Of a DNA stretch of 64,000 nucleotides, positions 14,143-57,046 are shown piece by piece; position 1 is the stretch's first letter; every line of letters starts with the position of its first letter. The notes under the pieces are model-generated. The model made no database searches. It was not told the origin of the DNA and was given only the letters and a program-made list of their open reading frames with translations. Position numbers and translations under genes: made by a program. The stretch is from Fragilaria crotonensis. Taxonomy: Eukaryota; Bacillariophyta; Fragilariophyceae; Fragilariales; Fragilariaceae. Location: contig JAKSYS010000074.1 in NCBI GenBank assembly GCA_022925895.1, forward strand, positions 79,015 through 143,014, in the 5' to 3' direction.

Positions 14143-14583
14143 AGTCCCGCGTCCCGCACATGACGGGGAGTATTCCTACACACCTGTACCTGGTACAAGC
14201 ATAAATGTCACTGCTGCACATGGTGGCAACCAGTACCATTGTACGACTTACTGGAGTACTGGAGTACATTATAGAGATATATGTGTATCATACAAATTGT
14301 ACTTGTACCCAAGGCTCAACTTGTAGTTTGGCGTTGAGCAGAACCTGCATCCGAATTCCATATGCATATCTACTCTACCTAGTGCTAGTACCATAGAGAG
14401 TACCAGTGACTAGTCCTACTGTGCCGGTATTAGAATACGTATGTACCAGGTAGCGAAAAAAAAGTATGATGATACACATGATACATGATGTATGCCGATC
14501 ACGGGCAAATGCTTGACATCAGGGTCACGATCGACTCAAACCGCATCCGCGACGACCGATGACATTCTATTGGCTAATCTGTT
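14143..14583. other. Intergenic stretch rich in GTAC palindromes
   Basis: No gene is seen. GTAC-centred words are dense: CCTGTACCTGGTACAAG, CCAGTACCATTGTACG, GGAGTACTGGAGTAC, TTGTACTTGTACCC and AGAGTACCAGTG. The last 100 bp likely include the promoter of the LRR gene that starts at 14584. Confidence 0.5.
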
Positions 14584-24528: not shown

Positions 24529-24822
24529 AATAAACCTAATTATTAGGGTTTTCACCGTCGATGGTCTTTTAACAAAACCATCGTGTGTACCCCGTCGTGG
24601 CCATCCCTTATTCCATGGTGGCGACGATCATGTTATCCTAACCCCATCCCTAGCGCGATACCTTATTTCGGTGCATGTATTCCAAGTGTGTTTGAACGTT
24701 GTGTATCCGTGTTCGACGGTCTGAAAAAGTTTGTCAGTAAAGTTTGTCTCTTCCCGTCACGACTGTATCTATCCTGTGCCATTTTCATGTAACGAAGCCA
24801 TCGCCGTCGTGAGGACGCTGAT
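24529..24822 (-). other. 3' UTR of LINE A
   Basis: It shares blocks with the 3' UTR of LINE C: GTGTGTACCCCGTC[GA]TGGCC, a small stem-loop around GGTCTT..AA[GA]ACC, and the terminal near-palindrome CCTAATTATTAGG at 24534-24546. These shared parts are candidates for the RNA signal recognised by the element's own reverse transcriptase. The tail next to the target site is TTTATT in element orientation. Confidence 0.6.
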
Positions 24823-27800
24823 TTATTTAAAATCTTCCAATGGTTGCTCGCAGTAATGCCTATCGCCTGCTCTTAAGGTTTCCGATTGTCGGTGCATTGC
24901 AGTTATCTCCGCCGCCTCCGCTTCCCTGATGTGTCGGTTGATGGCATCCTGGTTGTCGTAGCATTGTATTCCGGGCCTTCCATGTTGTCTGCGTGAGAGC
25001 TTGAACGGCTTTAAGAATGTGTGTATGCGGTGAAAACCAGTGTCCGGTTTAGCTGGAGAAGAATCGAACATAGCGTCCTCCGCCATGAATCGCCACTCGA
25101 CACTCAAGTACCCTTTGACTGCGTTATCCCATCCAATCGTCAGCTGATCACTTAAAGCTACACGCAGGCGTTCGTGGAATTTAGACGGAATTTGATCGAA
25201 CGGAGGATCGTATACTGCAATGCCCTCCACCCAGGAGATGATGCCATCTCGTAGGATTTGAAACACCGGGTGGGGTTCCTTCGGGGACATTGTTTTCCTG
25301 AAAGTTTGTAGACCTTTTTCGTGGTCCAATTCGATCGGCATTGAAGGACGTGCTGTGTCGTCTCGTCCGTCGTCTTGCAGCACGGACATAATCGAAGCTG
25401 GGGATCCTTGACCTTTGCGTTACGTATCCTCGTTACGCCCGTATGCCATTGGTTGAACATGAATTTTGTTTGCGCCACCTGTGCAGCCGGTGGTAATCGT
25501 CTATAGAAACGCCCGAGAGCTTCCACGTCGATTCGGTTCCAGGTGGCATTCGACCACCGATTTTGCGATTGGATATGCAACCGCAAGTGATAGCCGTTTA
25601 TGTGGAATCGAATACTGGACTCGACCTGGGATACCAATCGAACCCCGTTAAGCAATACCGTGACTCGTGCTTCAGGAGTGTGATCTGTTTTCTCAATTGA
25701 TTGTCGTTTGTTGGATTGTTCGCGATACCATGTTGCCAGAGAATCAACGTGATTGTTACGGATGACATCCCGATTATGCCCATTACAGACATCGTGTCGC
25801 ACCGTTTGATGGCCTTTGATCCACTTCGTCGTTATTTTCCGACGAAGGAACTTTGTTTCCGATCGAATGACTCCCAGATAATCAGAGTTTGCAGGTTGAC
25901 GTGTTTGGTTGATGATGATTTAGTTTCCGCACCACGTTGTTTATCGCGGTTTGACTGTCCGTTACCCATCGGAACGTGCATTTATGACGATGTCCCCAGT
26001 GTCGGTGTAACAATGAGAGAAACAGGAGAGCTGCCGCGTATCCACCGAGTTCGCATCTCGTAGAACTAGCGGTATCGTACGGTCCATCGATAGGTCCAGC
26101 CCTTCGCAGAGAATGTCATTCTTTGGTGTCGTCACGCTCCATCCAACGTACCTTTGCGACCTTTCAGACCGCCGTCCGAAGCAATCGTAAGAATTTGTTT
26201 GCGTTGGCATTCTTTCCAAAGCGTGTCCTCGTCGGATGTAAAATTGATGTGAGACAAGAGGCGTCGCGTGTTCCTTGGTAATCGTTTGAGTCTCGACGAT
26301 AGGGTCAATGCGTCGTCTTGTTGTTGCGAAGATTCCATGCTGACTTGGGTCTTCAGATCCTTCAGTGTGCTTTGGGGTGCTACTCTCCATGCCCTGCCGT
26401 ACCTGAGAAATTGTGACGCTATATACCGTCTCCACAGGCGCTGCTGTTTCACAGTCGGATTTTGTTGCCTCGGCCACGTCGGATTGACAACAAAATCTGT
26501 AGGTCGTATGCCGTCAAGTGCCCATGCTGCAATCTTAGAAGGTTCATGGCAATCCACCATATCGGCTATCGTCGTCACTTGGAGGAACAGTCGTATGAGA
26601 TTGATATCGGTCTGTTGTTGCGTTGTATCCCTTCAAACGGATTGAGTTCATGATGTACTGGTCATGTGGACCCCGAAGTGGAAGCGAGAGGACATTTGTG
26701 ATGTCCATGCTAATGTTGTGATTGGACATGAACTGACGCATTGAAAGGATCCAAGTCGGCGTGAGATACGGTATATGTATACTCGGTTCCGCTAGTAGTT
26801 GCATGGGGACGCCCGATTCGAGTTGTGATGCTTGAAGTTGAAGAAGAAGCAACTTCCCGACTTCTGTGTTGCCGTAAACCTCGTGACGAAAATATTTAAT
26901 CATTTCAATGCCTCCCTCTGTGCGAAGGTCCATGAGTCCTAATCCGCCCATGGATATGGGACCGTGACACAGCGACCGGTAATTTGCTGGAGAGTCCCAG
27001 TTTTTGCACAATCGTCGGAATGATTTTTGTCTGCACCTGAGCCAATTCTTCTTCGTCCACCGCTACGGCTGGCAGTGAATACCTCATGGCCGGATCGTAT
27101 ATAGTGCGATGGAAAACTCGAATGTCGCCAGGAGTTAATCGAGGTGATTTGAGGTAACCTGCGAATTTGTCAGCCTTGGCTTTCAGAGCTTTGATATGTG
27201 CCGAGAAATCCCCTGACGGTGTTTGATGCACACCAAGAATCCTTGCAGGCTGGTTGATGTCTTGTCGTCGAATTTTCGCCCTTTGATGATGGGATAATGA
27301 CCCCTGATATAAATTGATGGAGGGATCGGAGAGGGACGATGTGCGCATTTGTGGTCGACCATTGCGCCAGTCCCAATACATAATGTACCAGGAACATTTC
27401 TTCAGATTAAGAGCTCCCCCTGAAAAAATGGAGAAGTTGTTCCCATGTCTGTGCGACCGTTTCTAGTGCTGTTGTCAATTCATGGATCGATTTTGTACCA
27501 TCATCTGTTATCCCGATAGCTGTGTCATCGACAAACGCGTCCACCAGTCGTCTATGAGTAATAGAGCCATCCACTGATCGAAAGCTTATGCGATCGGGAA
27601 TAACACGTTCCAACGTATTCAGCAGAAGTACCACGAGTGATAGCCACACCGATGGTGATGCCCCGCTTCCTTGGCCAGTACCGAAAAGAGGTTCCAAAGG
27701 CGTACCGCTGTACGACTCTTCTGATACTCCGTACACCGTTTTCACCATGTATTTCATCAATTCGAGAGATGTTGCATGAGTACGGATGGCCTCTGGCGGC

Positions 27801-30521
27801 ATCCCGCACCTTCGAGCTGCCAACATACCCAATGCTACAATAATTCGATCAAAGCATGCCGACGCATCGTTATCGAAACGAGCGTAGTTGATTTTGAGGA
27901 CTCTGCACAGGTCGGTGGTGAGTTGGTTTAACATTACTGGGTCCATTGTTGTTCGTCCCGGAACTGATCCATGTTGACCATCATTTAATAGATGGAGTCT
28001 GACCGAACGTCTGACCAGACGGGATCCCCACATTATTTTGAGAAAAAGGTTGTAATCAGCCTCGAACAGATGTATAATCCGCAGGCGGTTGATTTGAGGT
28101 CGTCCAGGGTCTTTTTCTATCATCACATTCACAGCATTACTCCATCGCGGTATAGAAATCCCTCGTGAGATTGCTATATTCATAAACTTGCGGAAACACT
28201 CCAATAGCATTGTATCCTGAATCATTGCCTTATAGTGACCCAAATGCCTCCCAGACGGAGACGTGGTTGTCGTCTCCTTCCAGGATTTGAAACCCCTTAC
28301 GATATCTGCTGAGGTTATGTCGCAGGGTATTGGTCCGCTTTCAAGTACTGAACCCGGTATTTGGAATGAAGCAAGAAACTCTCGTAACAGTTCGCGATCT
28401 CCATACCACTCCTCCGGGATTTCGCCTTGCAATAGAGCCTCCGATTCCGGGGAGAGGCTCGTGAACGTGAGTGCGTCATGTATCAATCCATGTCCGCACG
28501 GTGATTCAGCAGCTGCTCGGAAAGCTTCTCTGTTGAAGCTCAATAAATGTGCCTCGATATCTTCCCGTGTGATCACAGTATCCCAAATGAGATTGTCAGG
28601 GCAACTGTGTTGGAGTAGATTGTGAACTTGTCCGGGGGGTGTAACATCGCTCGATTCCGGGTGTCGAGGAACCAATACCTGAGAAAGAGCCGAATACTCG
28701 GTCGGTTTGACGATCTGCCTGAGTTTACCAAAGAGTTGTCTACTGGTTTCGCCAAGTAGAGTCCTTTTTACAATCCGAGCTTTTCTTGCCGATTCTGTTT
28801 TTGTAAGAGGATTGTTGTCCATTTCGTAGGTTTCGAGCAATTCCGCATAATTGTTGTTGTGTAGCTCGGACGCGTCCTTCTGAGTTTTGCGCAGTACTTT
28901 TGTCGCCTGATTAAGTCGTTTCCGTACCTCACATATTGGTAACTCTATCGAACGGTCGGGGAGCACGAAAGATGGATCGCAAGATTGTATCTGTCTCTCC
29001 CAGCGGCTAAATGTATTGTAGTAATCTTCCCGTACTGATGTTCTCGTAATCGCAGTTTCCAATATCGCATCAACACTCCCGCATTGCGTAGCCGTGGCGA
29101 CCATTTGTAGAGTTTTGGTCTGACGCGTAAAGAATTCTCAGCTTTAGCATCGCACGTCCTTGATCATCATCCCATGCAGTCAAAATTTCCGAACCTGCTG
29201 TCGTGTCATCGCTCGATGTGTTTTGAACAGTGTATCGATTCGCTCTTTCATTCGGTGATCTGAGTAATACTCTCGAATCGCCTTGTGGTATCTTTCCGTT
29301 AGTTCTGGATTGCCGCTCTTAAGAGCACGTCGATGGATCGTTGGTAAGGAGGTCTCTGTAACGTCCGCCCCAAAGAGAGATGACAGATTGATATCAATGT
29401 ACAGAGCCCTATGGTCCGATTGTGGACCTTCGAAGTAAGATAGAGTACCTTGACGACTCATAGCGTTACGAGTTCGAGGGCAACCAAACATATAATCGAT
29501 TCTCCTATTTGCAGACCCAATGAAAGTTGACGGTGCAGGAGTCAGCCGATGTAGGTCTTCAAGGTCCTGGGACATTAGCATGTTTTCGAGTCGGTGATCT
29601 CTCTCAAGAACTGCGTTCGAGTCCATCATAAGCAGTAGGGCATGTCCTTGCTCGCGCAATTCTCTTAACTTAGATGAAATATCCGTCAAGAAGTTTGTCC
29701 TAGGTTGTGGGTGTTGTTCTCCTTGCTCCTGATAGTACACGTATTCTCTATGGAATGTACTTCCTAGGGGCTGAGGATATGGAGCTCGCGCATGTACGGT
29801 AACCAGTAATAATGCTAAACTTCTGACCGTCTTTTCCGATCAGCGTGAAACCACTCCACCTACCAAGACCAGTTGGATCCGTTATTGGTGGACCAAAACC
29901 GCTGTCGTTAATGCGCCTCGAACCAGTTGGAGGACTCCCCAGCGTGGAAGGTTTCCCTGTCATGGAGAGGATCAATCGCGACAGATGGCGAACCGAAGAC
30001 TGTTTTCCGTACTGGAATTGCCTTTGGACGCACTGTTTAAAAGCATTTCGCAAGTGCGTATGTTGCCAGCCCAAATTTGTTTCAGCCATACCAAAAATGT
30101 CCACAGAGTACGATAGCATGGATGATAGAAAGTACCGATAGTCGGAACCTTCCTGTGTGGATGTAAGACCTTTGACGTTTTGAAACATCACTCTCGTTGT
30201 GTTCGGAGCCTTGTAAACAATAGCGTCGCCAAAACTTTGATCTGCCACCGGATCCACTGTGCGTCGAATCGTTAGACGTCCTGGACGCTGCTTTTGAAAC
30301 AGCAAAACCTGAGACGGTGGTATGGGAGGATGCCTGTCGATCCCTCGAGATGTGTAACGACCTCTGTTAATGAAGGTCGGAATATCGCCGGTAGTCTCCT
30401 CGGATCTGTTGGATGTATTCCTGAAAATGCCATGGATATGTTCCTGGCGTGTTGCTTCCGCAGCACCGTCCTGACTTCCTTCATGAGTTTGCCTTAGCGT
30501 AAATGCCGTAGTAGGATTCAT
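24823..30521 (-). pseudogene. LINE A ORF2 (endonuclease, reverse transcriptase, RNase H), multiply frameshifted
   Basis: The likely start is the ATG at 30521 (MNPTTAFTLRQTHEG), 22 nt after the ORF1 stop. The endonuclease N-half shows RVMFQNVKGL and FGMAETN; its C-half (29740-29180, another frame) shows MMDSNAV, RRIDYMFG and SDHRALY. The linker and reverse transcriptase (29104-27407) carry TTSPSGRHLGHYKA, IIHLFEADYN, LLNDGQHGSVPGR, DASACFDRI, GTGQGSGASPS and catalytic FVDDTAIG. After further frame changes come the C-terminal region (FRHEVYGNTEVGKL), RNase H (LTIASDGGLKG near 26200, HVDSLATWY near 25740) and a zinc-type motif LCPCC(X)nH near 25390. The end is LRAGDRHYCEQPLEDFK at 24823. At least seven frame changes occur across about 5.7 kb. 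Confidence 0.88.
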
Positions 30522-30543
30522 GTTTTGTGTGGTTGACTGCTGC

Positions 30544-33489
30544 CTATGACTCAAAAGGGAGTTTCCAGTCGTTGATATTCTGATCGGTGAAGGCGTCATC
30601 ATTCGTTGTCGCCTCCTCTGGATCACTTTGTTGGTTGTATTGAGTGTCCAGATTAGGCAAAATTGATGAGCTGTCGTCGGATGCATCCATTGTTGATGAT
30701 ATGTCCGGAGGTGCGGAATGTGGTTGAAAGGTCACAAGAGTTTCTTCCTCCAATTCATCCTCAAACTCGGTTGACCCCAAGGACATTTCCTCTAGTTCGT
30801 CGTGAAGTGATCGCGACTTTTTCTTCGTCGGTGAATTGGCTTGTAGAGATTCATTCCTGTCCGTAGGCTCCACATGGTTGATAGAGGGACTGTCAGATTT
30901 CTGCACGAGATTGAAGTGAAGTCGATTGACCCCGACGTGTTCAGTGCTCTCCGTCAGATCGCGCATGTCCATGAGTGTCCGTCGCCGTGTTGGATCCTTA
31001 GTACCAGTGGTCCGGTTGTGTTCGGTGCCTTTAACCTGATGTTCGTGTTCGCCTTTTACTATTGTTGCTGTGAGTACCTCGATCCGGGTGGCCATGCGAT
31101 CAATAACATCCATCAATTTTGACACTCGGATGTTCAGATCTACAATTTGAACATGGGAGTCTTGTTGGCGTTCCATCGTGACTGCGAGTTTGTCTCGGCT
31201 ATCGTGTAAAACTGCATCCATATCGTCGATCCGGCCCAGTTTGGACTCGATGTTGTCTAATCTGGTTGCGGTTTGGGACGTGAGAGTGGAAGTCTCCGCC
31301 GTTTCCTGCTGTTGACGTCGAAATAGAGCTTCCAACTCGTTTAGGCGTCGTGTGGTGTCAGAAGACATGACCGATGCGGTAGCCCTGGACTGTGTCGCTG
31401 ATTGAGTAAAGGCAGTGTTGTCATCACCATGCTCCAAATTGTTTGGTACCGAAGATTGAGCCGCTCCTGTGGGCAGCTTGGATGCCTTTGGGCCAGCTCG
31501 TTTTCCTCGTGAACGTTGGGTGGTGGAGAGGTCCTCTGCGTTATCCACCTCTGTCGTGATACCCCGCACCGATGATGGTGCATTTTTCCATATATCCTTT
31601 GATGACATCTGGCCTAAAAGATCCAAGTTCTTTTGAGTAGAGTGATCGATATGAATGACTGACGGTAATCCGGATAGACTGTCACGGAATCGAGCTTCGC
31701 GCTTGCCAATGGGGTTAAGTCTCAATCGATATTGCCGAAGGTGATCGGCAGCTTGCTGGGCGTACTGCCTTGGGACTAGCAAATAGGCTTTTTGGTCGTA
31801 GCCTCCGTTCACGACTTCACATCGAGCCGCGGGATCATCAACGTCCTGAAAAATTGTGCGCGCCCATTCCCTTGTGGAACGTTCAACAACCGTGCCATTT
31901 TCAAAAATTTCTTTCCGGATTTTATCCAAGTTGATCAGTGTTGGAAATAACGGAAAGGATTTGAGCGTTTTGGCGTAAACATCTTGCATCTCAAAGTATT
32001 CGCTAATCTGCGATGGTTGCAGTTGAGCGAGTGCAATACGTGGAAGAAACAAGGGAGAGTTATGTCCAGTCAAAAGAGCGGAGAGGGCCTGTGACAATGG
32101 TGACACGTGAGTTTCACCGCACTGAATCACAAGATGGTTAATCTTTTGTTCCATTGGTGTGCGATGGAAGAGAATAATGTCGAAAAAAGGGGTTTCCTTG
32201 GGTAGTTGTTGACGTAGACTCTGTAGGAAGTGGGTGCGTTGGGTAGTTCTAGCAGCTTTGAAAAGAATGTAACCGGCTGTTACAATTTTTCCGCTAGTTG
32301 TGGTGGAATTGGAGATTTTCACTTGTACTTTGTGCTCAGCAAGCTTGGTTACTGTGTTCTCTTTGTTTCTCCATTGGCAGGGAAATTTCGCTGCGAAGCA
32401 GACACGAGCTCCAAAAATGATTTGGGAGGTAGCCGACAGGAATGCAATGTTCGGTGAGAGAAATTCTCTCAGCTCACCTGGTGACAGAGTAGTTATCTCT
32501 GAGGAAAGCAAGAGATCACGACTTTCCCATCGATAGAAAAAACAGTCATTGTCTGGGAACAACTCGCACAACATTGCATGAACATCTGTCAACCAAAGGG
32601 GAGATTGTTCGTTGTAACGAGAAAAATCTCCTTGTGGCGACCATCGGAAAGTAAGTCGATACGTTCCGTCGTTCGTGGGAACATTGAGGTCTGGGTTAAA
32701 CACCGACTGTTTTTCCACAGTGAATGAGGTATCGGAGGCTGTAGTGCTGTTGGAGGATGTGGTTTTCTTGTTCGGAGAACCGCAATCATCCGTGGAGGTA
32801 GGCATGTTGGTGGTAGATAGATCACGTACGGGCGAATTGTCCTCTGTGCGCTCGAAAGTACTGAACGATACGTTGGCAGAGTCTGTGGTGAAAGATTCGG
32901 GTGGAACTTTGGATGCATTCAGGGTGTTGGGCGAGGAAGCCCTCTGCTGGGTCTTTTGCTTCTTCGATCCGACCTGTGTCCATTGGGTCACTTCGATATC
33001 CATAATGTCACGATCACCTTGTACGTAGTCTGTCCATGACATGTCAATCGTATTGATGGCGAGATATTGCGGAGCATGGCGCTGGAGATATGGCTGAGAT
33101 ACATCAGTGGCCCATGCCGACAAAGTTTTGGAAATCTCCAGTTTTCTGTCGACATGATACATAAAATTATACCATACCATTCTATGGCAGATGATCGGGT
33201 CAGCACTGTACTTCATCCACAACGTATCGAACTTTGTGCAGTCGTCGTACACAAAGAAGCCCAGAGTCACATATCGAGACCAGTTCTGCGGTGTTCCATG
33301 TTGCTTGTAGGCATGTGCGTTGGCATCTCGTCTGTATCGTTCTTCGACAGAGAACCAGTCTACGCCTGCAGTTGGCCTCGGGATGGCTTTCCACTCCGTC
33401 GTATAAAAACCATACGTCGGATGATGCGGATCATGGTACGCCGCGGGGTCGGGAGGGGACGGGAGCGCCGCATGGGCGGTCATGGTCAT
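30544..33489 (-). CDS. LINE A ORF1 protein (about 981 residues), conserved family with LINE B ORF1
   Basis: I chose the ATG at 33489 (MTMTAHAALPSPPDPAAY) because it aligns with the LINE B start; the open frame reaches 33531. An N-terminal module (about 30-135) has DWFSVEERYRRDAN, LGFFVYDDC and YNFMYHVDRKLEIS. A Ser/Thr-rich spacer follows. A long conserved domain (about 278-633) shows TYRLTFRW, YRWESRDL, FLSATSQIIFGARVCF, HLVIQCGETHVSP, RSTREWARTIF and YRLRLNPIGKREARFRDS. A coiled coil lies at about 715-800, then an acidic tail. No CCHC knuckle or RRM is recognised. By position it should be the nucleic-acid-binding ORF1p that packages the LINE RNA; that is inference. The frame is intact although ORF2 is heavily broken. 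Confidence 0.85.
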   Translation of the reverse strand: MTMTAHAALPSPPDPAAYHDPHHPTYGFYTTEWKAIPRPTAGVDWFSVEERYRRDANAHAYKQHGTPQNWSRYVTLGFFVYDDCTKFDTLWMKYSADPIICHRMVWYNFMYHVDRKLEISKTLSAWATDVSQPYLQRHAPQYLAINTIDMSWTDYVQGDRDIMDIEVTQWTQVGSKKQKTQQRASSPNTLNASKVPPESFTTDSANVSFSTFERTEDNSPVRDLSTTNMPTSTDDCGSPNKKTTSSNSTTASDTSFTVEKQSVFNPDLNVPTNDGTYRLTFRWSPQGDFSRYNEQSPLWLTDVHAMLCELFPDNDCFFYRWESRDLLLSSEITTLSPGELREFLSPNIAFLSATSQIIFGARVCFAAKFPCQWRNKENTVTKLAEHKVQVKISNSTTTSGKIVTAGYILFKAARTTQRTHFLQSLRQQLPKETPFFDIILFHRTPMEQKINHLVIQCGETHVSPLSQALSALLTGHNSPLFLPRIALAQLQPSQISEYFEMQDVYAKTLKSFPLFPTLINLDKIRKEIFENGTVVERSTREWARTIFQDVDDPAARCEVVNGGYDQKAYLLVPRQYAQQAADHLRQYRLRLNPIGKREARFRDSLSGLPSVIHIDHSTQKNLDLLGQMSSKDIWKNAPSSVRGITTEVDNAEDLSTTQRSRGKRAGPKASKLPTGAAQSSVPNNLEHGDDNTAFTQSATQSRATASVMSSDTTRRLNELEALFRRQQQETAETSTLTSQTATRLDNIESKLGRIDDMDAVLHDSRDKLAVTMERQQDSHVQIVDLNIRVSKLMDVIDRMATRIEVLTATIVKGEHEHQVKGTEHNRTTGTKDPTRRRTLMDMRDLTESTEHVGVNRLHFNLVQKSDSPSINHVEPTDRNESLQANSPTKKKSRSLHDELEEMSLGSTEFEDELEEETLVTFQPHSAPPDISSTMDASDDSSSILPNLDTQYNQQSDPEEATTNDDAFTDQNINDWKLPFES

Positions 33490-33499
33490 GGTGGGGATG

Positions 33500-33585
33500 C
33501 TACGCGACAACTTCCTATTCGGGATACGCAATTACGAACGGCGGACAGAACGTACTTGCGCAAAACTAAACTAGAAAATTGTGTG
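33500..33585 (-). promoter_or_regulatory. Conserved 5'-terminal block of LINE A
   Basis: The element starts with CACACAATTTTCTAGTTTAG and ends this block with AATAGGAAGTTGTCGCGTAG just before the ORF1 ATG. Aligned without gaps to the LINE B start (56944-57029), 70 of 86 positions agree. LINEs need an internal promoter, so this block is the best candidate. Confidence 0.6.
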
Positions 33586-33596
33586 TCCCGAGGTAT
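33586..33596. repeat. Right target-site duplication of LINE A
   Basis: TCCCGAGGTAT, identical to 24518-24528, directly follows the 5' end of the element. Confidence 0.88.
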
Positions 33597-33700
33597 TGAA
33601 TAATCACAAGGTTGTATTTAGAAACGGCAACGTGAAGCAGGTTCTGACCACACGAGTCCCTCGCGAGTGGATTCAGCGACCCTGATGCCTGATGCCCTGA
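33597..33700 (-). pseudogene. Ankyrin-repeat protein, 5' part, beyond LINE A
   Basis: On the minus strand this reads DSCGQNLLHVAVSKYNLVII then QYLGTEWGGSRKEL, running without interruption into the target duplication and, after removal of LINE A, into the YAVDRQGTTALHVA piece at 24500. It therefore gives one ankyrin repeat upstream of the insertion. Further upstream the minus strand has a short GATGCC(CT) tandem repeat near 33683-33712 and no clear coding sequence. Confidence 0.72.
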
Positions 33701-33720
33701 TGCCATGATGCCACATCACG

Positions 33721-34280
33721 ACGGATTTGGTCAAGCGGACGTCTCACTACGACATGCTGACAGTAGCTTGTACTCCGTACTCCGTGCATTTAGACTTTGC
33801 TGTACCAGTCATGCTGCGTGACTAGTAGATAGCATGTCAAACGCGAGCGAGGAAAGGACGGGTCCCCGATTAGGTTTCACCAATTTGACGTCAGCGCCCA
33901 CGTCACAAACAGTAGAAGTACTGACGTCTTTATCGTTCAAACGTACTCCGAGTACCAACATACATAGTACCGGAAGAGCTGTACTGGATTGACGTTCGTA
34001 CTGTGTCACTGGTTACTTGTTTGCGGACCACGAGACTGCGCTCTTCCAGGAGGTTCCGGAATTTCGGCTCTTTTATGTGTCTCGTAACTTTTACGCAGAT
34101 TATTTACCAGAAATTTGTTCGACAAACATCTAAATAATTCCACGTTTCCAAAATGATAGAATATCTTCTGTTGATACACTATAATTAAAACCGTGCTTTA
34201 TTTTGGAACTGTTGTTTACATCGTTTGTTATGACAAGTACGACATCGATTCAATGTCTTGGATGAACTAGTGCTATGTAG
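33721..34280. other. Intergenic, nothing recognised
   Basis: GTAC-rich near 33770-33800 and 33940-33980 (TTGTACTCCGTACTCCG). No gene is supported. Confidence 0.3.
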
Positions 34281-34696
34281 GGATATTCAAAAAAGACGTT
34301 GGCTCTTGAGCCACTGGCTCTTGAGCCATTGGCTCTTAAGCCATTGGTTCTTAAGCCAGTGGCTCAAGAGCCACTGGCTCAAGAGCCAATTTACCTCGTC
34401 CAACTAGTCGAGGAACGTGTTTTCTTTAAATGAGAACTCGCCACACGGGAACGGAAAAAATGACAGGTCATCTAAGGTCGATGGTATGCGTATGCATGTC
34501 TCCTATTGGTATGACATAAAGTGCGAGCACTTTTGAGGACGAGTTCTATGACACACAAAAACGTGTGTTCTTGAGTTTGACTTCGCCGGGGCTGTTGTTC
34601 AGCCGTTGGCTCTTGAGACAACGGCTTTGAGCCAATGGCTCTTGAGCCATTGGCTCTTGAGACAACGGCTGCCGACACTTCAAATGTCGAATATCC
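34281..34696. repeat. Small hairpin-rich element with 8-bp terminal inverted repeats
   Basis: GGATATTC at 34281-34288 is inverted as GAATATCC at 34689-34696. Just inside each end are serial 16-bp units of GGCTCTTGAGCC separated by ATT or ACT. There are about six on the left (34301-34391), with the last copies in opposite orientation, and about four on the right (34607-34670). Each unit can fold on itself and the left and right arrays can pair. No coding capacity is seen. A MITE-like element is the best guess; no target duplication is clear. Confidence 0.6.
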
Positions 34697-36189
34697 TTAA
34701 GTAGGATTTTTATAAAACGCCGATTCCGTTGTCGCATAGTCTAATCTCAAGTTCTTTAGTTTCAGCTCAAAATTTGTCACGTCATGAGATTGATGTACCT
34801 AATGATCCGGACATTTGAAGTGATGGAACGTGGAATATTTGTCCGGCGTGACGAACGAAGTTGTAGAATTAGTATCCGTAGCCAGTAGTAGACACTTATA
34901 GGTAAAAGAGCCGAAATTCCGGAACCTCCAGAACTCCACAAAAGGCGCGCAACTATTGGCAAGTACAAAGTACCGGCGGCAGTAGGTCTACTAGAGAGGG
35001 GATTGCTTCAAAACAATCCAAAAGTTGCTCGGTATCCTCTGTATTATGTTCCGACGTATCCCGAGTCCTCTTGAGTATCTGCAAAGATATGTGATGCATT
35101 ATGAATACATGGTCAACAAGCTGAGTGTTGCCTCACCAAGCACATTCGCAAATCGTGCCACAAATCACTTGGAGTATATGACATAGTGCTGAATCCCTTC
35201 ATCAATGACGTTCTGAGTGTGATTCGCGTCGACAAAATTCGAATGCTCCATCCAGCCCATTGCCGAGCACACATCACATGAAACGTGGAACTCAAGGACT
35301 TGTGTGGCCTGTCCAATCTGGCTAGCATCGACGAGGCGAACGTGTCAGAAGTGACCTGAACAGCCTGCACTTCATCAGCAGTGGGAAAGCTCGATACGTG
35401 TCTGTCTGCGTCTTGCTGTCTTTTCCTTCGGCTGACCGTCAACGCTGATGCTACTTGCTTTCGATTGCACCGCCGCCCTGATTGCAACCACCCACCCGCC
35501 TGTGTGTCCCAATGGACAATCACCCTGGAAAAGCTCCTCCCATAATCGGAGCGAAGACCTTGATAGTCAGCGGCGGTGACCGTTTTGCAACATCATTGGT
35601 GAAAGGAGTTGGCGGCAGAGGCCATATAGTCGGTATTGCCTGCCTTCTAGGTGAGAATGTATTTAAGCGACAGGAAGAAATGAACCAGGAAGGTTGTTTC
35701 GTTATCGACGAGTGTGCGGCTATACAAAAGTTCGAGTAACGACTGGCAAAAGCACGAGGCCGCAAAATCCTCCACTCCAGTGTATCGGAACGTATCGCAA
35801 ACACTGTGCAAGGCCTTGGATCACTAGAGCATCTTTGAGCTTAAATCGACTCACTCGTTCGGCAGCACCGTCTTTCTGACATTGGAAAACTAAGTTAACT
35901 TTGAATGGTCTGGACAAATTACCCCGGTATCACAGCGTTTGGTAGCAGTGCACCCAAAGGTGTCCAGCAAGGTTTCTCCGAATAGTTATCATGAACATTT
36001 ATCAGCCTGTCCAACGAAGATACTAATGCATTCGAAGAAAATTTTGGAAAGCTCGAGGGACTACTGATATGAGTCTCAACTGAGCACCGCGTTGGCGCAC
36101 ATGTCAAGATTTTGAACGGCCTCGAGCTCATCGCATCGAATGCCAGCGGCTAGTGCATGCCACAATTTGTGGAGAAATCATTGATTCCT
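34697..36189. other. No recognised gene; may include decayed upstream parts of the kinase gene
   Basis: A 76-codon plus-strand frame (ATG 35512) reads GAKTLIVSGGDRFATSLVKG and FVIDECAAIQKFE but matches no family I know. The ATM/TEL1-like relic may extend into this stretch, but I could not identify blocks before about 36190. Confidence 0.3.
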
Positions 36190-37919
36190 TGAGAATCGAC
36201 GCAGCTTTTCATGTTGTTGCATTGCCTTAGCGGAAAATGCAGCGAATGTATTCGAGAGAGCGCATAATCGGATCATGAGTGATGCGTCAAGAGCGAAGAC
36301 GGAGAAAGATATGCTGGAGGAGTAAATTGCGTCATCTGCGTGTCTTGCTTTGGATGCGTTCGGAGTGTCCTTGTCGTTATGCAACTAGTATTCGAATGAG
36401 GACTCGACATCGCACGAGTTTCGAGTTTTATCTATTTGGTTTCCGACGCTGCTGCTGGTGCAGGATTTCAATGTGGTCGGTGATCGCATTTTGACGTGGT
36501 CATTGATCGCGTTTTCGACACGATCCCGACGTCGTGGCTGTTGCAATTGACGTACCACTTGCACTCGCGACTATGTGTTGGGCAAGGACTGGATTGGGAT
36601 CCTATTCAGACTACACTGTCGAAGCTTATCGTGCTTATGTGTGAGCAGCATCCATCTGACTGAACTCCTCTCTCTCACCCACGGAGAAGACCATCGATCT
36701 GTCGGTGAAAGCCTTGATCCAATAATCCAAGCAGCAAATGCCATTATGGCTGCATTGTGAGGAGCAGCTGACGCAAACCGGCTCGACCTGTATGAAACAT
36801 AAAAGAAGCCATCACAGACGCGTATCGTAGCCATGCAATGGCAGTCCCATCTAGCCTGAACAACACATCGTGCAGCAACGAGGAATCCCGATTAAGGATT
36901 TCTCGAAGAACGGCATCAGAGCTAAAATGCGGTGCGCCGAATGCGTGCCGTGAGTATTAACTTGGTCTCCCACAGTCATTGAAATAATGAATACGGCAAT
37001 TTCACGACGGATTCGCCTGGAAAAGAGTCGATAAACAATTTTCAGCCCGAATGCCCGCCTCGCGCCAACGGCCGTACGCGCCTGACGATTTTGGTCTACA
37101 TGGTATCCACAGGAACGTGGTTCAAACAACTAGTGAAAGGAAATAACAACATCCAGCAAGATGCAATTATGCAACAAGGTTTCACGTATAGTAATGAGCT
37201 TCTGCGTCGTCGAACCGAGCAGAGTCGAGAACAGCCCTCTCGTCGAAAGAAGGGCGACACCCGATGTGTTCGCAAACCATTGAAACTTTTGACCAACAAT
37301 GTGGGTACCTCTGTGCCCCAAACGCGGCATTCTTGGCCGGATGTTGCGGGATACACGCACGAAACTGGTTAGGCGAATGGAGTTTTAATCGATGTATGGA
37401 GGAGCGAAATGATGAAGGTGTTCAAAGCCAAGCACGAAAAAAGCATGCTGCACTCGACCAATTCTGCCAGAATTTTTCGGCTGTTTTTGGAAGAGTCGAA
37501 ATGTTTGAACGCGATTTACTGGCTTGGCACACCGCTAACATGGCGTACACAAGAACCTTTGCCGTAAGCCGTATTGTCGGTCACATGTTGGGCATTGGTG
37601 ACCGGCATCATCGATTTTGGAAATTACTTTTGAACAGGGGCGTCTCGTGCGTAACCCAGAGACAGTTCCGTTCCGACTCACTTTGTGATATTGTCGACGG
37701 CACGGGACGCCTTGGGACGGACGGACCTTTCACAGCGGAGGCAGAAACTTCATCTCGGATTTTGAGGGAGAACTCCGACACGCTACATGAAATCCTATCT
37801 GGCCTTGTTAGCGATCTGCAATGCGAAAAGGCGCATCAAATGCTCGGGCCCGTCAAGAAGACGAGGAAGAGAGTGCGAGCTTGGTTGTAAGAAAATTTCC
37901 TCTAATGGAAGCCGCACGT
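36190..37919 (+). pseudogene. ATM/TEL1-like PI3K-related protein kinase, C-terminal part, interrupted by LINE C
   Basis: ATM/TEL1 kinases signal DNA double-strand breaks in the nucleus. Plus-strand blocks in changing frames follow the family order. FAT region: LALDAFGVSLSLCN and HEFRVLSIWF near 36345-36450, and WLLQLTYHL with LSKLIVLMCEQHP near 36530-36655. Kinase N-lobe: QLVKGNNNIQQDAIMQQ and ELLRRRTEQSRE near 37125-37230. C-lobe: AYTRTFAVSRIVGHMLGIGD followed by RH, near 37540-37600. Activation segment in other frames: IDFG and FEQGRLVRNPETVPFRLT near 37610-37680. Then DIVDGTG and TLHEILSGLVSDL. The catalytic loop loses its Asn, and about 15 codons between GDRH and IDFG are missing. Several frameshifts and stops are present. 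The frame just before 37919 (VVRKFPLMEAA) continues beyond LINE C at 40279. Confidence 0.82.
37911..37919. repeat. Left target-site duplication of LINE C
   Basis: GCCGCACGT is repeated exactly at 40279-40287, at the other end of LINE C. Confidence 0.88.
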
Positions 37920-40278
37920 TATATATAACCTAATTATTAGGTTAACACCTTCCCCGGTCTTTCGACAAGACCAGCGTGTGTACCCCGTCATGGCCTACCC
38001 GTATTACAGGGAGGCGGTGACTTATCTATCCCTAACCCTAATCGTCATATGTATAACCCCCCCCCTGGTCGCGTTTCCGTGTCTGTGGCTGTTTCAATCG
38101 TGGTTCTAGATCGGAAGAAATTTGTCATGAGTGTTTGTCGTGTCCCGTCGGTGGATGCTCGAGTGATAGCTCTTCTCATGTACAGTAACCACCGTCGTCG
38201 TGATGATGGAGATTTCTTTTGAATCGCCTCTAAGGGCTGTTCGCAGTAGTGCCGATCCCCTGCTCTCAGCCTGTCAGACTTCCTGTACAAGTCTGCTATC
38301 TCGATCATCTCGAATCCCTGATCATACGAAGGTCCAAATCCTGGGAATGGTGTAACATTTTATTTCTGCTCCTCCAAACCGTCTGATGATAAGAATGTAT
38401 GGCCAGTAGAATGGTGTGCATCCGTTGGTAACCTCGGCCTTGGATGGGAATATCTGAATCAAAGAGATCGTTCGGCCATGTGTCCATGCGACACTTAGAT
38501 ATCCTTTCATAGCATTTCCCACCCAATGTCCTGTTGATCTTGGAGAGCCTCTCTTATTGAATCGCTGAACTTTGCTGGGTACTCCCCTGGCTGTATCGCA
38601 TATGGTGCCGAGTCGTCACGATAATCTATCCATTCGCACAGCTTGTCTTTTATTATGTTGAATACCGGATGAGGTCCTGACGATGATAGTGTAGTTCGAA
38701 GCTGGCGCAAGGCTGACGTGTGATCGGTGTTCGAGCGACAACGAAGTACATGAATAGTCGTCTCGTCAGTCACCTTGCAGCAGGGACATAAACTGAGTTT
38801 GGAATCTCGCACTTTGGCGTTTCGACTTCGCACTTTGCCGGTGTTCCACTGATCGAAAATGAACTTCGTTTGCGCCACTTGTGCTGATGCCGATAATCTT
38901 CGATGAAACCGTCCGAAGATGTCCACGTCGATACTGTCCCAGGTGTTGTTTGTCCACTTGTTTTTCGACTGTACATACGAGCGTAGATGATATCCGTTAA
39001 TATGGAACCTCAAACATGATTCGATCTGAGATACTAGCCGAACCCCGTTGACAGATAATGTGATCCTGGCTTCAGGCGTGTGCTCTGTCTTCTCAACTGA
39101 TTGTCGTTTTTTGGAGCGTTCTCGGTACCATGTCGCAAGATGATCCACATGAGAGTTCCGAATCCCATCTTTGTTGGAGGTACACACCGTTTGATGACCT
39201 TTAACCCAGACTCGTGAAATTTTCCGTCTGATAAATTTAGTCTCCTTTTGAATGATACCCATGTAGTCCGGATTGGATGGTTGGCATGCCTTGATTGGTC
39301 GATGGAGTGTAGAATTGGCGACGTTGGTGATCGCAGATTTGCTATCCGTAATCCAACGGAATTGACATTTGTGACGTTTGCCCCATGAACGTTGAAGTAT
39401 CGATATCAAGATAAGTGCTGCCGCGTAGCCTCCGAGTTCGCAACGAGTGGAATTGGCAGTGTCGAATGGGCCATCGACTGGACCGGCACCTTCGCAGAGT
39501 ATTTTGTTCTGAGGAGTTGTGAGGCTCCATCCGAATGTCCCGTGTCGACCTTTCAGTCCGCCGTCCGATGCGATAGTCAGCGTCTGTTTGCGTTGGCATT
39601 CACTCCAAAGTTGATCATCACTTGCTGCAAAATGAATGTGGGTCATCATCCGTTTCTGATTCCGCGGCAAACCTTTGAGCCGCAGTGCCACCGTACCCGC
39701 ATGGTTTGTGGAAGGTCGAGCAGGAGCGAGCGGTTCGTTTACCTGCGTGTGGCCTATTGATTCTCGCGCCATTTCCTGTCATACCGCAGAAATTGCGACG
39801 ATATGTACCGTCGCCAAAGTCGTTTCTGGGAGGAACTCGGAGGTAGTTGGCGGGGCCAAGCATCCTTCGGAACGAAATCGTCGGGCCGTTCACCTTGCAG
39901 AGCCCATCGTGCTATGTTGGTTGGTATGTCGCTATCCGTCATCTCAGCTATCGTCGTGATCTGTAGATAGATCCTCGTGAGATTGATGTCCTTCTGTTGG
40001 TTGGCGCTATATCCTTGGAGCCGTGCAACATCCATCACATACTGATCAGTGGGACTCTTGAGTGGAAGGGATAACGTATCGGTGAGTGTAATCTTAATGT
40101 TGTGGTTTGACATGAATTGTCGCATCGAGAGGATCCATGTTGGTGTTAGATACGGAAGGAAGAGACCGGGTTCCTCGAGAAGGGGTATAGGAAGGCCTGA
40201 CTCGAGTTGTGAAGCCTGAAGTTGCAGAAGAAAAAGTTTTCCGACCTCCGTGTTACCGTAGACTTCATGTCTGAAGTA
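37920..40278 (-). mobile_element. LINE C: 5'-truncated LINE (2359 bp) inside the kinase gene
   Basis: The element is in minus orientation between 9-bp duplications. It starts abruptly inside ORF2 at the YFRHEVYGNTEVGK region (40278) and runs to the 3' end CCTAATAATTAGG with the tail TTATATATA. Its protein and 3' UTR match LINE A closely, so it is the same family. 5' truncation with a target duplication is the normal product of target-primed reverse transcription. Confidence 0.88.
38045..40278 (-). pseudogene. LINE C ORF2 C-terminal part with RNase H
   Basis: From 40278 leftwards: FRHEVYGNTEVGKL, PYLTPTWILSMRQFMSNHNI, WRRYISSQFLRYDRKW. The longest open part (39772-38507) then holds the RNase H (LTIASDGGLKGRHGTFGWSL, TRCELGGYAAAL, WITDSKSAITN, WVKGHQ, SHVDHLATWY) with the D, E, D, D acids in place, and a zinc-type motif LCPCCKVTDETTIHVLRCRS. 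The end piece (38308-38045) has LRAGDRHYCEQPLEAIQKK. Three frames are used. There is no reverse-transcriptase core, so it cannot move on its own. Confidence 0.85.
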
Positions 40279-40398
40279 GCCGCACGTGTTGTTTACGACC
40301 CAAAGGACAACGTCTCTACCAAATATATAATCGCGAGACTAAAGGAGAAGCTTCAAGGATACGAGGAAGTTACCTTAAGCGAACACCTAAGTGTTTGA
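40279..40398 (+). pseudogene. ATM/TEL1-like kinase, piece downstream of LINE C
   Basis: After the second GCCGCACGT the plus strand reads ARVVYDPKDNVSTK, YIIARLKEKLQGYEEV and TLSEHLSV before a stop at 40396. RLKEKLQGYEE is the helix that precedes the FATC tail in ATM-type kinases, in the frame that is open just left of the insertion. The FATC motif itself is not visible after the stop, so the tail was lost or frameshifted. Confidence 0.75.
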
Positions 40399-41069: not shown

Positions 41070-42082
41070 TTAATCACAACAACCAGCTCTGCATACGATT
41101 TCACCGGCGTCAATTGCAGGAGTCACATGTGAGCAGAGGACAGACGGAATTGTCCCCGTCAAGTTATTTCGGAACAACCATAACGTATCCAGCAGAGACA
41201 AGCGTCCTAACTCAGTGGGAACCTTGGAAGGCAAGCTGTTGGTTTGCAAATACAACCGAGTCATTTGTGTCAAGAGCCCCATCTGAGTTGGAATACTTGA
41301 TGACAAATTGTTGCGGGCGGCGGAAAACAAGTTGAGCAGTGTCAAGCGCCCAATTTCGCTTGGAATCCTGGATGACAAGGACCTGTCAGAGAAATCCAAA
41401 TATGTCAGCTTCGTCTAGTCGTTGTGTCGCCTGAATTTAGGAGCGCGTCAAACTTGGTTCTCGATTGACAAACAGACAATGATGGAATTGTTAGAAAATT
41501 GCAAGCAATTTGTATTGCGGAGAATGTGGGTGCTCTCGTGGGCGCTCTCGTGGGCGCTCTCGTGGGCGCTCTCGTGGGCGCTCTCGTGGGCGCTCTCGTG
41601 GGCGCTCTCGTGGGCGCTCTCGTGGGCGCTCTCGTGGGCGCTCTCGTGGGCGCTCTCGTGGGCGCTCTCGTGGGTGCTGTCGTGGGGTTGGCGGTGGGTG
41701 CTGTCGTGGGGTTGGCGGTGGGCGCTGTCGTGGGTGCTGTCGTGGGGTTGGCGGTGGGTGCTGTCGTGGGTGCTGTCGTGGGGTTGTCAGTGGGTGCTGC
41801 GGAAGGGTTGGCAGTGGGGTTGTCAGTGGGTGCTGCGGTCGGGTTGTCAGTGGGTGCTGTCGTCGGGTTGGCAGTGGGTGCTGCGGTAGGGTTGTCAGTG
41901 GGTGCTGCGGTAGGGTTGTCAGTGGATGCTGCGGTAGGGTTTGCAGTGGGTCGTACGGTAGGGTCGGAAGTTGGTGCTGCGGTACGGTTGATCGGGCCCA
42001 CAGCTTTGATCTGCATCCCTTTTTGTGCATCACATACCACGGCAAGCGATGCAAGGGATAGATAAATGTTGATCATGGTCAT
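41070..42082 (-). pseudogene. Secreted LRR protein with a long Pro/Thr repeat stalk, frameshifted
   Basis: I place the start at the ATG at 42082 (MTMINIYLSLASLAVVCDAQ), a signal peptide; the frame opens 14 codons earlier. A stalk of NPTAAPTD-like and then RAPT-like repeats follows (about residues 30-165). Next is the Cys cap (IACNFLTIPSLSVC) seen in the other LRR proteins here, and the frame ends at SGDTTTRRS. The LRRs continue in another frame from about 41410: TKLTYLDFSDRSL, IPSEIGRLTLLNLFS, IPTQMGLLTQMTRLYL, VPTELGRLSLLDTLWLF and the end AGEIVCRAGCC. About 20 nt of the first LRR are missing at the break. Without a TM helix, the ancestral protein was probably secreted or wall-bound. Confidence 0.8.
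41528..41672 (-). repeat. 12-bp minisatellite encoding RAPT repeats
   Basis: About twelve nearly perfect copies of GGGCGCTCTCGT (plus strand) encode Arg-Ala-Pro-Thr on the minus strand. Related 9-24 bp units with GTGGGTGCTG continue to about 41960 and encode the NPTTAPT part. Several other frames are open only because the unit is a multiple of three without stops. Confidence 0.92.
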
Positions 42083-44007
42083 GCTGTAGAAATCAATGAT
42101 CCTACCAAGGAACGATGGCAACAAAATTCATCATTTGAGGCTTGTGTGAACTTCAAACTCGTTGCCGTGACTTGCGGCGAGTTCTGCGGTGTTCGCAAGA
42201 TTGACTTTGCAGTGGTTGTATAAATGTGACACTTGTGTCCTTTTCTTGACGTATTTAGTATCGAATTGGTGAAATGTAAACGTGCCTGCTACCGTAATAA
42301 AGAAAGCACGAAACGAGAGTTCAATAGTGTTGCCTTAATAAGAAATTCGCTAAATATAGGCTTTTCCTCCTTGAGACAATGCTTCGAGTATGTAGGACAA
42401 TTCTAGTACTGGTGATGGGACATATCCGTAAGTGACATAAAAGTCGGAAGAGCGTCGGCGAGCTTTTCTATTTCACAACAGTTGTATACGAAGTTGTTCG
42501 CTGCGCCACTTCGAAACCAGTCTGTTGTTCTCTCTTGTTTCCGTTCGGGTTGCCCAGAGTATCTCTCCGTCATGATCGACGGTGTAGGTAGTCAGCATTA
42601 GTGGTAACGTACGACTGTAGGGGCGAGGTAGACTGATGTTTGGGTTGGTCGAGGGGATTCCCTCGACGGTAAATTCAGCTCCAACTCCCCGGATGTTGGG
42701 TGGTCCAGGGGTGGGCTTGGGGAAAATTAAACGATTAGTAAGCTATTGACTTAGTTGCTGGGATGGAAGTTTGCTTGGCACAGTCGGTTCACTTTGGTGG
42801 ATCGATGTGGGCAAAATCTCCCACTCCAGCGGCTTGGATCGGCGAGTTCACGTTGCAGCTAGTTTTCGCGTTCAACGGTGAATCGTGGATGTCACCGTAT
42901 CCATTACGTATGTATGCATACAACATGCCGATACGACATGCCGATATGAACTGCCGATCCGGGGCAACGATAGTACAGGTAGTCGTGCCCGTAGTGCTGC
43001 CCGTACAGTACTTTCGTGCCCCGTTGTAGTAGTGGCGCTGGAGGCACAGTACTGTGCTCCCACCCCAGACCATGTAAATTAGGACATAAAACCTGATGCG
43101 CTAGCAGTGCAACAAATTATGCATCCTACTTCTCTTTAAACTTACTTAGTTCTGCTTGTATGTCCACATTGCACAGACTACCTGATACACTAGCCCGAAT
43201 TATGCATACTATCTCTATCTCCATAACGGTCAGTTCAATATGGATGTGACAATCTGGCTTGTCGTAATCATGTCGTTCCAGGACTGAGGTTGCCGAAAGA
43301 GCACCGGTATCAGTAGTAGCAGAGACAAGTAGTCGGTTTTTGAAATCTTGACAATGGCTGCGATAGTACCAGGTGCTTTAAGGCACGCGTCCATTCTTTG
43401 CAACGTACAGTATTTGTTGACGTTGTGCGCCAACTACGACACCACGACTATGCTGGTTTGCGTGTTCTCCAGTATGTCTTAAGATATAAGAGATTGGAAG
43501 CATAACGACGAAGTCATTCCTCGTCGAAACGACATGATTAGCAACTCCCAAGTTAGAACCCAACATGTGAAGGTTGAACAAGGACAATGAAGCACCATAG
43601 TGACAAAATCAAAAACCTGCTCTCGCAATTGCCGCATCATCTCTGTCATTCTCTAGTCCAATTGCGATAGGTGATTGGAGAAGTTGCATTGAAAGGACAG
43701 GGATGACGAAATTGTGCCGGACAATGCATTCTTGGTGGACAAGGACACTTTTTTTCAAGGTTCGAGGTCGTATCCACGCTCGCATTTTCTACCTGGCATC
43801 TGGAGTACTCGGTTGAGGTTGTGGTCATATCTTTGCTGAAATCTATTTCCTGACTGTACGACAATGAAAGCACTGTCATTAAAATTTATAGGAGATACAA
43901 TGACTGTGCCCAGGAAAGCGAAAATGCGTTCGTCAAGAACGCGCTCGCCCTAGGGGCTTGAACGATTTGTCCTTTGCAGGGGACAACGTGAGAAAGACTG
44001 TTATTCC
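42083..44007. other. Intergenic, no supported gene
   Basis: Short open frames only. Near 43650-43730 the minus strand has NALSGTISSLSFQCNFSN, which might be one decayed LRR, but it is too short to call. CGTA/GTAC-rich words occur near 42960-43075. Confidence 0.3.
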
Positions 44008-44367: not shown

Positions 44368-47300
44368 TCACCATCCCATGACAGTGCGTCTGTGCTTTGC
44401 CAATTGGATCTCGTTGAGAGCCTTTGTCAGATAGTCGGCTGGCTGTTCTTCCGTTGCGATCGCATGGATACTTATCTCCTGCCGTTCCACGTAGTCTCTG
44501 AAGTGATGCAATCGTATGTTGAGGTGTTTCGTTCTTGGACGATATTTATGTACCTTCGCCATTCGCCACTGTTGTCCTCGAAGACGCGGCAGTGAACTAG
44601 TGAACTTGGCCTGCGCGGTGGCGATGGGATACCCTCTTGACTTCATCTCCTTCAGAAGTTCCATGATTGGTATGGCGTCCCTGAGCGCGTAGCTGAGTCC
44701 AGTGTACTCGCTCTCTGTGGTGGACAGTGCGATTTCGGTTTGCAACTGGGATTTCCAGAGCAAGGGACATCCCGCATAGTTTATAATATACCCGTGTCGG
44801 GAACGGGCAGTGTCTCGATCGGTCGCTGCTTCAACTGGATCCCAGTCACCACAGAAACTCGCATCCACGAACACTTCAAGATCCTTTCCACTTATCGGAT
44901 TCAATATTGTCCCTTGGTGTCGAGTCCCTTTCAGATATCTGCCGAGCCACCTAATGGCGTCTCCATGTTCGCGTTTAGGATCTGAGACGAAGCGTGCGCA
45001 CTGATGCACAGCAAACGATATGTCACTCCTTGTCGCCTTTTCCAAGTAGTTGAGTTTACCCACTACGGAACGGTAATTGAATGAGTTGTCGAATGCCGAT
45101 GAGCCGCTGTGCCTTGTGAGCAACTTTGAAGAGGCGCTGGGGTTGTCCTTGGTTTTACCGAGTCGTCATTCATGCGAAGGTCATCAAGGATTTGTCCGAT
45201 CAAGTGAGGTTGAGTCAGATGTATCGTTCCATCATCCTTGCGCTCGATGTTGACGCCTAGGAAGTCAGCCAGGTCACCCTCTACTGTTATTGCCAGTCGA
45301 GCCTTGTTCTTCAAGTCTTCAATCACCCTGTCGATCTCATCTTTGTCTGGTCCGGCCAGAAGACTGTCATCCGTGTAAAGAACATACAGTGTCTTTCCTC
45401 GGTAGAAGACACATTCGTCAACCTTGGACTGTTTGAATCCCAGGTCGTTGATCAGCTTATCGACGAGGAATTTGTTCCATACACGCCCAGCCTGCTTCTG
45501 CCCGTATATGTTCCGATGAATCATGAGAACATAGGCTCTTGGATCACCCATCTTCGAGCTCTACCTCGGATGGTATTTTCATGTAGAGTGTTCTTTCTAC
45601 TGGCGCCTGTGCGAACGCTTGGACGAAGTCAATTTGTTTCGTGTGCCATCCGTGCACCGCAGTGAGCGTCAGTAACATGCGGACGGAGTTCCAGGAGGCT
45701 ACTGGTGAATATGTTTCATTATAGTGCACTCCGTGGCGCATGCGTGATCCGTCGATGTTAAGTCTGGCCTTGTACTTCTTGACTGCACCGGTCTTCGCGT
45801 CGCGTTTACGTTTCAGTTGCCATACTGCCGGAAGTATGATCTCACCTTGCGGTACCTCCGACTTTGGTATTACGGTAAAGTTGCCGTTTTCGAACTGATC
45901 TCCCAGTTCTTTCTCCATTCCCTCTAGGAATTTCGCCCAATCCTTTTCTTTCATTGCTTCGTGGAAGTAAAGGGTATCGGGGTCCGACACCGCTTTGTAT
46001 GCGAGGAGCGGGTCATCGTGATCGCGATCGTCATCGGGGAACATTGCTGCGAAGCAGAACAGTTCGCCCTCAACATCATCGGCGGTTAATGGGGATAGCT
46101 CCGCCATCATGGCCTCGATCGTTAATCGTCGAATCGGCTTCGTCTTTCGACCGGACCGTGTTACTGTTACAGTGTTACGGTCCACAACTTCGCTGTGGCT
46201 TCCACTGCCAGTTTTCGAAGTTCGAGACACTCGGTTGTTCTCGTTTGCTGCAGCTTGTTCACTCTGTTGTTGTGACTCCGGAGTACCTGCCTGATTCGTC
46301 GATGCCTTTTCCTGCCTTTTCCTTTTCCTGTTTCCGGAGGTGTTGACTCCCTCAGAGCTCCACGTCCGTTCGATTGTGGTTTGTTCCTCTGGGCCTTTGT
46401 TTCTGTCCGTCAGAGTCTCCCTCTGAGCGACAAATCCTGCCCTATTCTGCCATTTGGATTTCACCGTGATGTCTTTGACGGTTTCGAATGCTGCGTCAAA
46501 TGCGACATGGAATTGTGGACTTACGAGCGCCGTTTCTATCCAGTACAAGCGCTACGTTCCTTCCGTGGTGAGGTGACGTGCCGATGTATATTCCCACCTT
46601 CGATCTGCTTTTCCATTTGTGAAACGGTTGCTGACCCTGAAGGCTGTTGTCCAGCACATATGCTGGACATCCAAACGGTTTCCAATGTTTTGGATTTGAT
46701 ACCACTTTTGTCTTCGTGAATATCTCCGTCGGCGATCGTCGTTCCTTATCCTGGAGGCATGGTGTGTTGTTTATTGCTTCGTTCGCGACTCGTACTGCGT
46801 ACGGCCATAGGTTTGCCGTCACACCATCTGGCCACCGTGAGCTTGCATGGATCAGCATCGAGCGAGCCATTTCCTGAAGCTCTCTGATGCGTCTCGGCAA
46901 TGCCGTTTTGATGATGTGCGTTCACACCCGCAAAGGTGAGTCCCTGGCCGTCCTTCGCAGGTGTCAGTCCAAAGTCGTGCTTTGAATATGCCATTGTCAG
47001 CGTGATAATTTTCGACTGTTATGCCGTGTCGCTTTGCGTACCGCTCAAAAGCTTTCTTGCCATCGACAGTTTCTCTGCGGATGCTGTCTTCTGCAAGTAG
47101 ACGTAACCCATTCGACTAAACTGATCAACGTATACTGTCGCATATTTGTATCGTTTGGTCGTGAGAAATCCTGTCATCTGTGCTATCAAACCTGGTGTCG
47201 GCGATACCAACTGGTCGACGGATACTATTTGTCCGGGTCTCACAGGTGTTCCTTCATCGATGAGGTTCTTCCTGGTCTTGCCTCGCCATGGCCTTCGTGT

Positions 47301-57029: not shown

Positions 57030-57046
57030 CCAACAGTTGATCGACC

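Follow-up and report, generated by a model that had tools for sequence, protein, structure and literature searches.

ATM is a central kinase of the double-strand-break response. The available text of one survey reports no ATM gene from the ciliates examined, from several fungal groups, or from most of the Microsporidia examined (PMC5709506). In the diatom Seminavis robusta, ATM (Sro154_g070060) is expressed and is upregulated with meiotic genes, as stated in the accessible part of that report (PMC8027222). A study of diatom meiotic genes found MRE11 and RAD50 and did not find Xrs2/Nbs1, and the word ATM is absent from the portion of its text that is available (PMC4647503). In the literature searched, which covered subscription papers and preprints only to a small extent, we recognized no paper describing a diatom that has lost ATM. 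Here we examine a 64,000-nucleotide stretch of Fragilaria crotonensis DNA (the window; contig C722:79015-143014, reaching the contig's end) in which an ATM-type kinase relic is interrupted by a LINE (Table 1). We consider it likely that the relic is a unitary pseudogene of ATM/TEL1, meaning the species' own gene rather than a spare, and that the gene died first and the LINE came later.

Table 1. Coordinates, in window numbering, of the kinase relic and the inserted element
Feature	Position	Strand	Remarks
Candidate FAT-region remains of the same gene	36419..37030	+	Resemblance seen by eye
ATM-type kinase-domain relic left of the LINE	37031..37919	+	Frameshift-aware alignment, phmmer, PF00454; includes left duplication copy
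Catalytic-loop gap	37607..37625	+	GDRH then almost directly IDFG
Target-site duplication, left copy GCCGCACGT	37911..37919	+	Also in C348
5'-truncated LINE	37920..40278	-	3' end at 37920, truncated 5' end at 40278
Longest LINE open frame in the window	38507..39778	-	Weak RNase H match
Target-site duplication, right copy GCCGCACGT	40279..40287	+	Also in C348
Remaining 3' part of the relic	40288..40398	+	Ends LSV-stop; no FATC after

The identity of the interrupted gene was examined by phmmer comparison with PDB sequences. The unedited 230-aa open frame at 37198-37887 matches ATM best (4e-11), followed by tel1 (1.5e-7), MEC1 (1.1e-6), and ATR (5.5e-6); this is the only ATM ranking that derives from unedited sequence. 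A longer read-through of the relic, with frames put together by eye with ATM in mind, ranks ATM at 3.1e-32, tel1 at 5.5e-23, MEC1 at 3.5e-13, ATR at 1e-11, and TOR2 at 6.3e-8, and because it was built in this way it leans toward ATM here as well as in the genome search, the tree, and the FATC-added score described below. The read-through matches Pfam family PF00454 (6.3e-13) and shares 84 of 206 sites with human ATM, 77 of 205 with tel1, 62 of 204 with the diatom's own ATR, and 59 of 203 with its own TOR. In a nine-sequence tree, which includes neither DNA-PK nor SMG1, the relic sits on a long branch, and 92 of 100 bootstraps place it together with ATM and tel1 (local support 0.86). The first-pass annotation had assigned the gene to the ATM/TEL1 type on the basis of kinase signatures. 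These signatures are found in the relic, which contains QLVKG, GDRH, IDFG, FEQG...PETVPFRLT, and DIVDG, and the best match of the unedited frame together with the tree supports the predicted ATM/TEL1 type. The demonstrated ATM homology spans about 37031-40377. Searches of 36190 to 37030 with an upstream read-through and Pfam gave no ATM match, and the FAT profile has no match on C722; the sequence FRVLSIWF near 36419 is taken by us, by eye, as a possible resemblance to ATM-gene sequence. A TAN-domain search was negative for the relic and equally silent for the controls.

With the LINE removed, 37106-40377 aligns to human ATM in a frameshift-aware comparison, and 119 of the 291 aligned residues are identical. 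The alignment begins at 37031 with a frameshift penalty of -8 and at 37106 with penalties of -12 and -16; it scores 318, compared with 31-40 for five base shuffles, and its path on human ATM contains no stop codons. The relic requires four frameshifts at -16, seven at -12, and nine at -8. At both -12 and -16, the diatom's own ATR requires one, which falls at a presumed intron, own TOR requires two, and own TRRAP none. At -8, the same controls require three, four, and, for the intact TRRAP, nine, and the lenient count therefore says little. Fourteen residues of human ATM, including the catalytic-loop Asn, have no counterpart in the relic. The frame stops after LSV, the point at which FATC starts in ATM, and an FATC profile search found none on C722. 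The frameshifts and the missing catalytic-loop Asn that had been reported from a first reading of the sequence are thus both present in the alignment to human ATM. As judged from these lesions, the relic is dead as a kinase gene whether or not the LINE is present, and the loss of FATC is separate from the LINE. The decay is not old, since this degree of identity to human ATM remains, a point that counts against our preferred reading.

A second contig, C348, carries the same relic, the same lesions, the LINE, and both duplications, and its frameshift counts equal those of the window at all three penalties. The comparison covers 50,000 of its 55,099 bases. Window 24529-34993 is 94.8% identical to C348:15733-26207, and the two are about 99% identical further right, where they differ mostly by small indels; a 1,856-bp stretch, C348:26207-28063, is absent from the window at 34992. 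There are no differences between the contigs at 36900-38056. Across the left flank (36900-37910) identity is 100%, and this sequence is found at just these two places in the genome, so the assembly holds no empty site. C348 could represent an allelic copy, a duplication, or a second assembly of one locus, and if the same reads underlie both contigs, their agreement is weaker evidence. These comparisons bear on whether the breaks are assembly errors in a gene that is actually intact, which we regard as very improbable. Small indels are frequent in patches between C348 and the window, showing base errors in the assembly, and own TOR, too, is broken into two frames that overlap, through either an intron or an error. 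However, the contigs agree across 36900-38056 and share the LINE with both duplications, neither a 14-residue gap nor the lack of FATC can be a one-base error, and own ATR holds a 3,026-aa open frame.

The element between the duplications is 2,359 bp long and lies on the minus strand. A genome search with this stretch revealed at least 64 related places, a lower bound because 40 of the 65 candidates were scored. The copy on C347 matches up to the 5' end of the window element and then continues as an open frame in which FVDD, by eye, occupies the position of a reverse transcriptase active site; the element is accordingly ruled out as a complete 2.4-kb unit. The C258 copy tracks C347 for 54 bp past the window element's 5' end before diverging, and its 3' end agrees with that of the window LINE. 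Read by eye from the sequences, homology to C347 and C258 ends at 40278, and homology to C258 starts at about 37920. The ends set independently by these related copies coincide with both copies of GCCGCACGT, which identifies the element as a 5'-truncated minus-strand LINE. Its longest frame matches RNase H (PF00075) with an E value of 1.4e-4, under the family's curated cut-off, and Pfam gave no match to 267 aa of the C347 frame. Older fragments of the same LINE family, about 65-70% identical, lie at window 25800-26221 and 26387-26630 (+).

The window contains two copies of GCCGCACGT and no more; in shuffled sequences it occurs 0.37 times on average and at least twice anywhere in 6 of 100 shuffles. 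The duplication could be 10 bp long instead of 9 bp, because an A precedes both copies, but this A also occurs in related element copies. When the element and one copy are taken away, the flanks read VVRKFPLMEAARVVYDPKDN...LSEHLSV in a single frame. These features support a predicted LINE insertion with target-site duplication. Both the exact 9-bp duplication around the LINE and the single-frame join claimed earlier are therefore upheld, the former by two copies of GCCGCACGT at independently set ends and the latter by flanks that read through VVRKFPLMEAARVVYDPKDN.

The first-pass annotation described the gene as cut by the LINE and allowed that decay may have come before or after it. The geometry of that description stands, with single-frame flanks and a duplication; its implied cause is probably wrong, and the decay probably came before. 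At least four frameshifts, common to both contigs, fall in 904 nt of the ATM part, whereas the LINE in C348 has a 738-aa frame that is open over 2,214 nt, and the LINE therefore probably arrived after gene death. If both parts had decayed for an equal time, with 2,190 nt used for the LINE, the probability that all of four frameshifts would fall in the ATM part is 0.007, and that all of seven would do so is 0.0002. The LINE frame in the window is broken by small indels that are absent from C348, and the argument for this order assumes that these indels are errors or private to the window contig. The LINE differs from the C347 copy at 49 of 1,092 sites, distributed over codon positions 1, 2, and 3 as 17, 5, and 27, the pattern to be expected had most of them arisen in working elements. 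A history in which the LINE insertion itself killed a working ATM gene, and the gene gained its frameshifts, catalytic-loop gap, and FATC loss only later, is unlikely. The insertion does lie in coding sequence and is present in both contigs, which speaks for such a history, but the lesion counts disfavor it, and the differences from C347, being mostly at codon positions 1 and 3, are those of a young copy. The LINE as the cause of the loss is likewise not supported, given lesions that are identical in two contigs and a LINE frame that is open in C348.

The sequence thus probably represents a young LINE in an older ruin, with decay of the gene preceding the element. In the mechanism that we propose, the ATM gene would have died first through frameshifts, a deletion in the catalytic loop, and removal of its 3' end. 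The LINE would have entered later, into DNA no longer under selection, presumably by target-primed reverse transcription, consistent with its truncated 5' end, a 3' end in common with related copies, and the 9-bp duplication. Break signaling would now depend on ATR, with MRE11 kept.

Whether the diatom retains a working ATM was addressed in one 62.1-Mb assembly of 881 contigs, searched in six frames and exon by exon. PF00454 gave ten matches in nine genes. PDB ranking names three of these as TOR (C131), ATR (C807), and TRRAP (C504), which are also the only genes genome-wide to match the FAT profile. Among the others, the gene on C437 has PI3K accessory domains, those on C41 and C669 weakly match a PI4K accessory domain, that on C108 has a weak ubiquitin-like match, and those on C186 and C262 have no other domain; FAT and FATC searches gave no match to any gene of this second group. 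Genome searches with the 230-aa frame or the read-through hit the window and C348, followed by ATR and TOR alone. The PF00454 search missed the relic itself, so badly damaged copies could escape it. The first-pass annotation had pointed out that the loss would matter if no intact copy exists; with PF00454, FAT, FATC, and two protein queries, no intact ATM was found in the assembly, within the sensitivity of these searches. MRE11 is intact as a 549-aa open frame.

FATC-coding fragments occur elsewhere in the assembly. Window 40343-40394 is 79% identical over 52 bp to a place on C34, near 187.2 kb (E value of 1.5e-6 against 10 kb), that lies directly 5' of an FATC coding stretch with its stop. 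With this stretch appended, the ATM score of the read-through increases from 115 to 133 bits, a gain that any FATC might give. In the C34 piece an in-frame stop immediately precedes FATC, and its contig has no PF00454 kinase match; as the end of an intact ATM, it was rejected on these grounds. The piece represents the detached 3' end of the relic gene or else a remnant of a second copy. The FATC stretches on C52 (near 22768-22845) and C780 (793-870) lie in broken surroundings and are almost identical to the tail of own ATR on C807. Over 9.6 kb, C52 and C780 share 99% identity, and their FATC resembles a copied piece of the ATR 3' end; a resemblance to a broken ATR tail ruled them out as ATM.

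The C34 fragment is relevant to the idea that the relic is a decayed spare and that an intact ATM is missing from the assembly or too intron-split for a six-frame search. A second copy would have sequence in common with the relic's 3' end, as the 52 bp on C34 do, and the searches were run exon by exon on 881 contigs. We nevertheless judge this explanation quite unlikely. The same searches recover own TOR, ATR, and TRRAP as long open frames, the two protein queries reveal no further ATM-like place, and the C34 piece has the in-frame stop and lacks a kinase match on its contig. We therefore retain the reading in which the relic is the species' own ATM gene. A more specific scenario is possible, and we offer it tentatively: a free-living photosynthetic diatom that keeps MRE11 and ATR would have lost ATM fairly recently, its FATC end carried to a different contig when a rearrangement broke the gene beside FATC, the remainder then decaying, and the LINE entering last.

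The remainder of the window contains several other features. There are 61 matches to the light-harvesting family PF00504, and one light-harvesting protein has its best PDB matches to FCPI-7 (4e-88) and Lhcr11, entries that we take to be from the diatom Chaetoceros gracilis. Two leucine-rich-repeat genes with internal repeats lie on opposite strands at 14578-16395 (+) and 17409-19259 (-), in a diatom-like style. RVT_2 open frames at 8211-13792 (+) and 45547-46551 (-) are probably Copia-type elements. At 41405-42127 (-), a PT-type disordered-repeat frame lies over a 12/24/48-bp tandem array, the length of which differs between the window and C348. The near-palindromic unit TGGCTCTTGAGCCA occurs in tandem arrays at 34291-34388 and 34607-34670. 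Two open frames have no Pfam match at an E value of 0.01, one of 995 aa at 30544-33531 (-) and one of 1,071 aa at 57041-60256 (+). Scans of the window for tRNAs and Rfam families found nothing.

If a diatom has lost ATM recently, a natural comparison with Seminavis robusta would become available, with break signaling examined in the presence and absence of the kinase. The species would, if this is true, run double-strand-break signaling on ATR alone, and the remains of the relic allow the loss to be dated. The LINE insertion itself is ordinary. Like LINE insertions in general, it has 5' truncation, a common 3' end, a short target-site duplication, and a longer relative, on C347, with an open frame that holds FVDD (by eye); it differs in its 3' end, which is TATATA-like and not poly-A. 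In comparison with ATM/Tel1 (human ATM, PDB 6k9k; tel1, PDB 9iz0), the relic has a recognizable kinase domain, identical to human ATM at 119 of 291 residues, and a helix before FATC that ends in LSV, but it lacks the catalytic-loop Asn segment and FATC, contains several frameshifts, and has a LINE in its frame. The Seminavis robusta gene is, by name, the same gene in a diatom, and in the available part of that report it is expressed, in contrast to the relic found here (PMC8027222). ATM loss is a known kind of event. In ciliates and several fungal groups, as in this diatom, ATM is missing from a eukaryotic genome; there, in the accessible text, an absence is reported (PMC5709506), whereas here the loss is seen with its remains in place.
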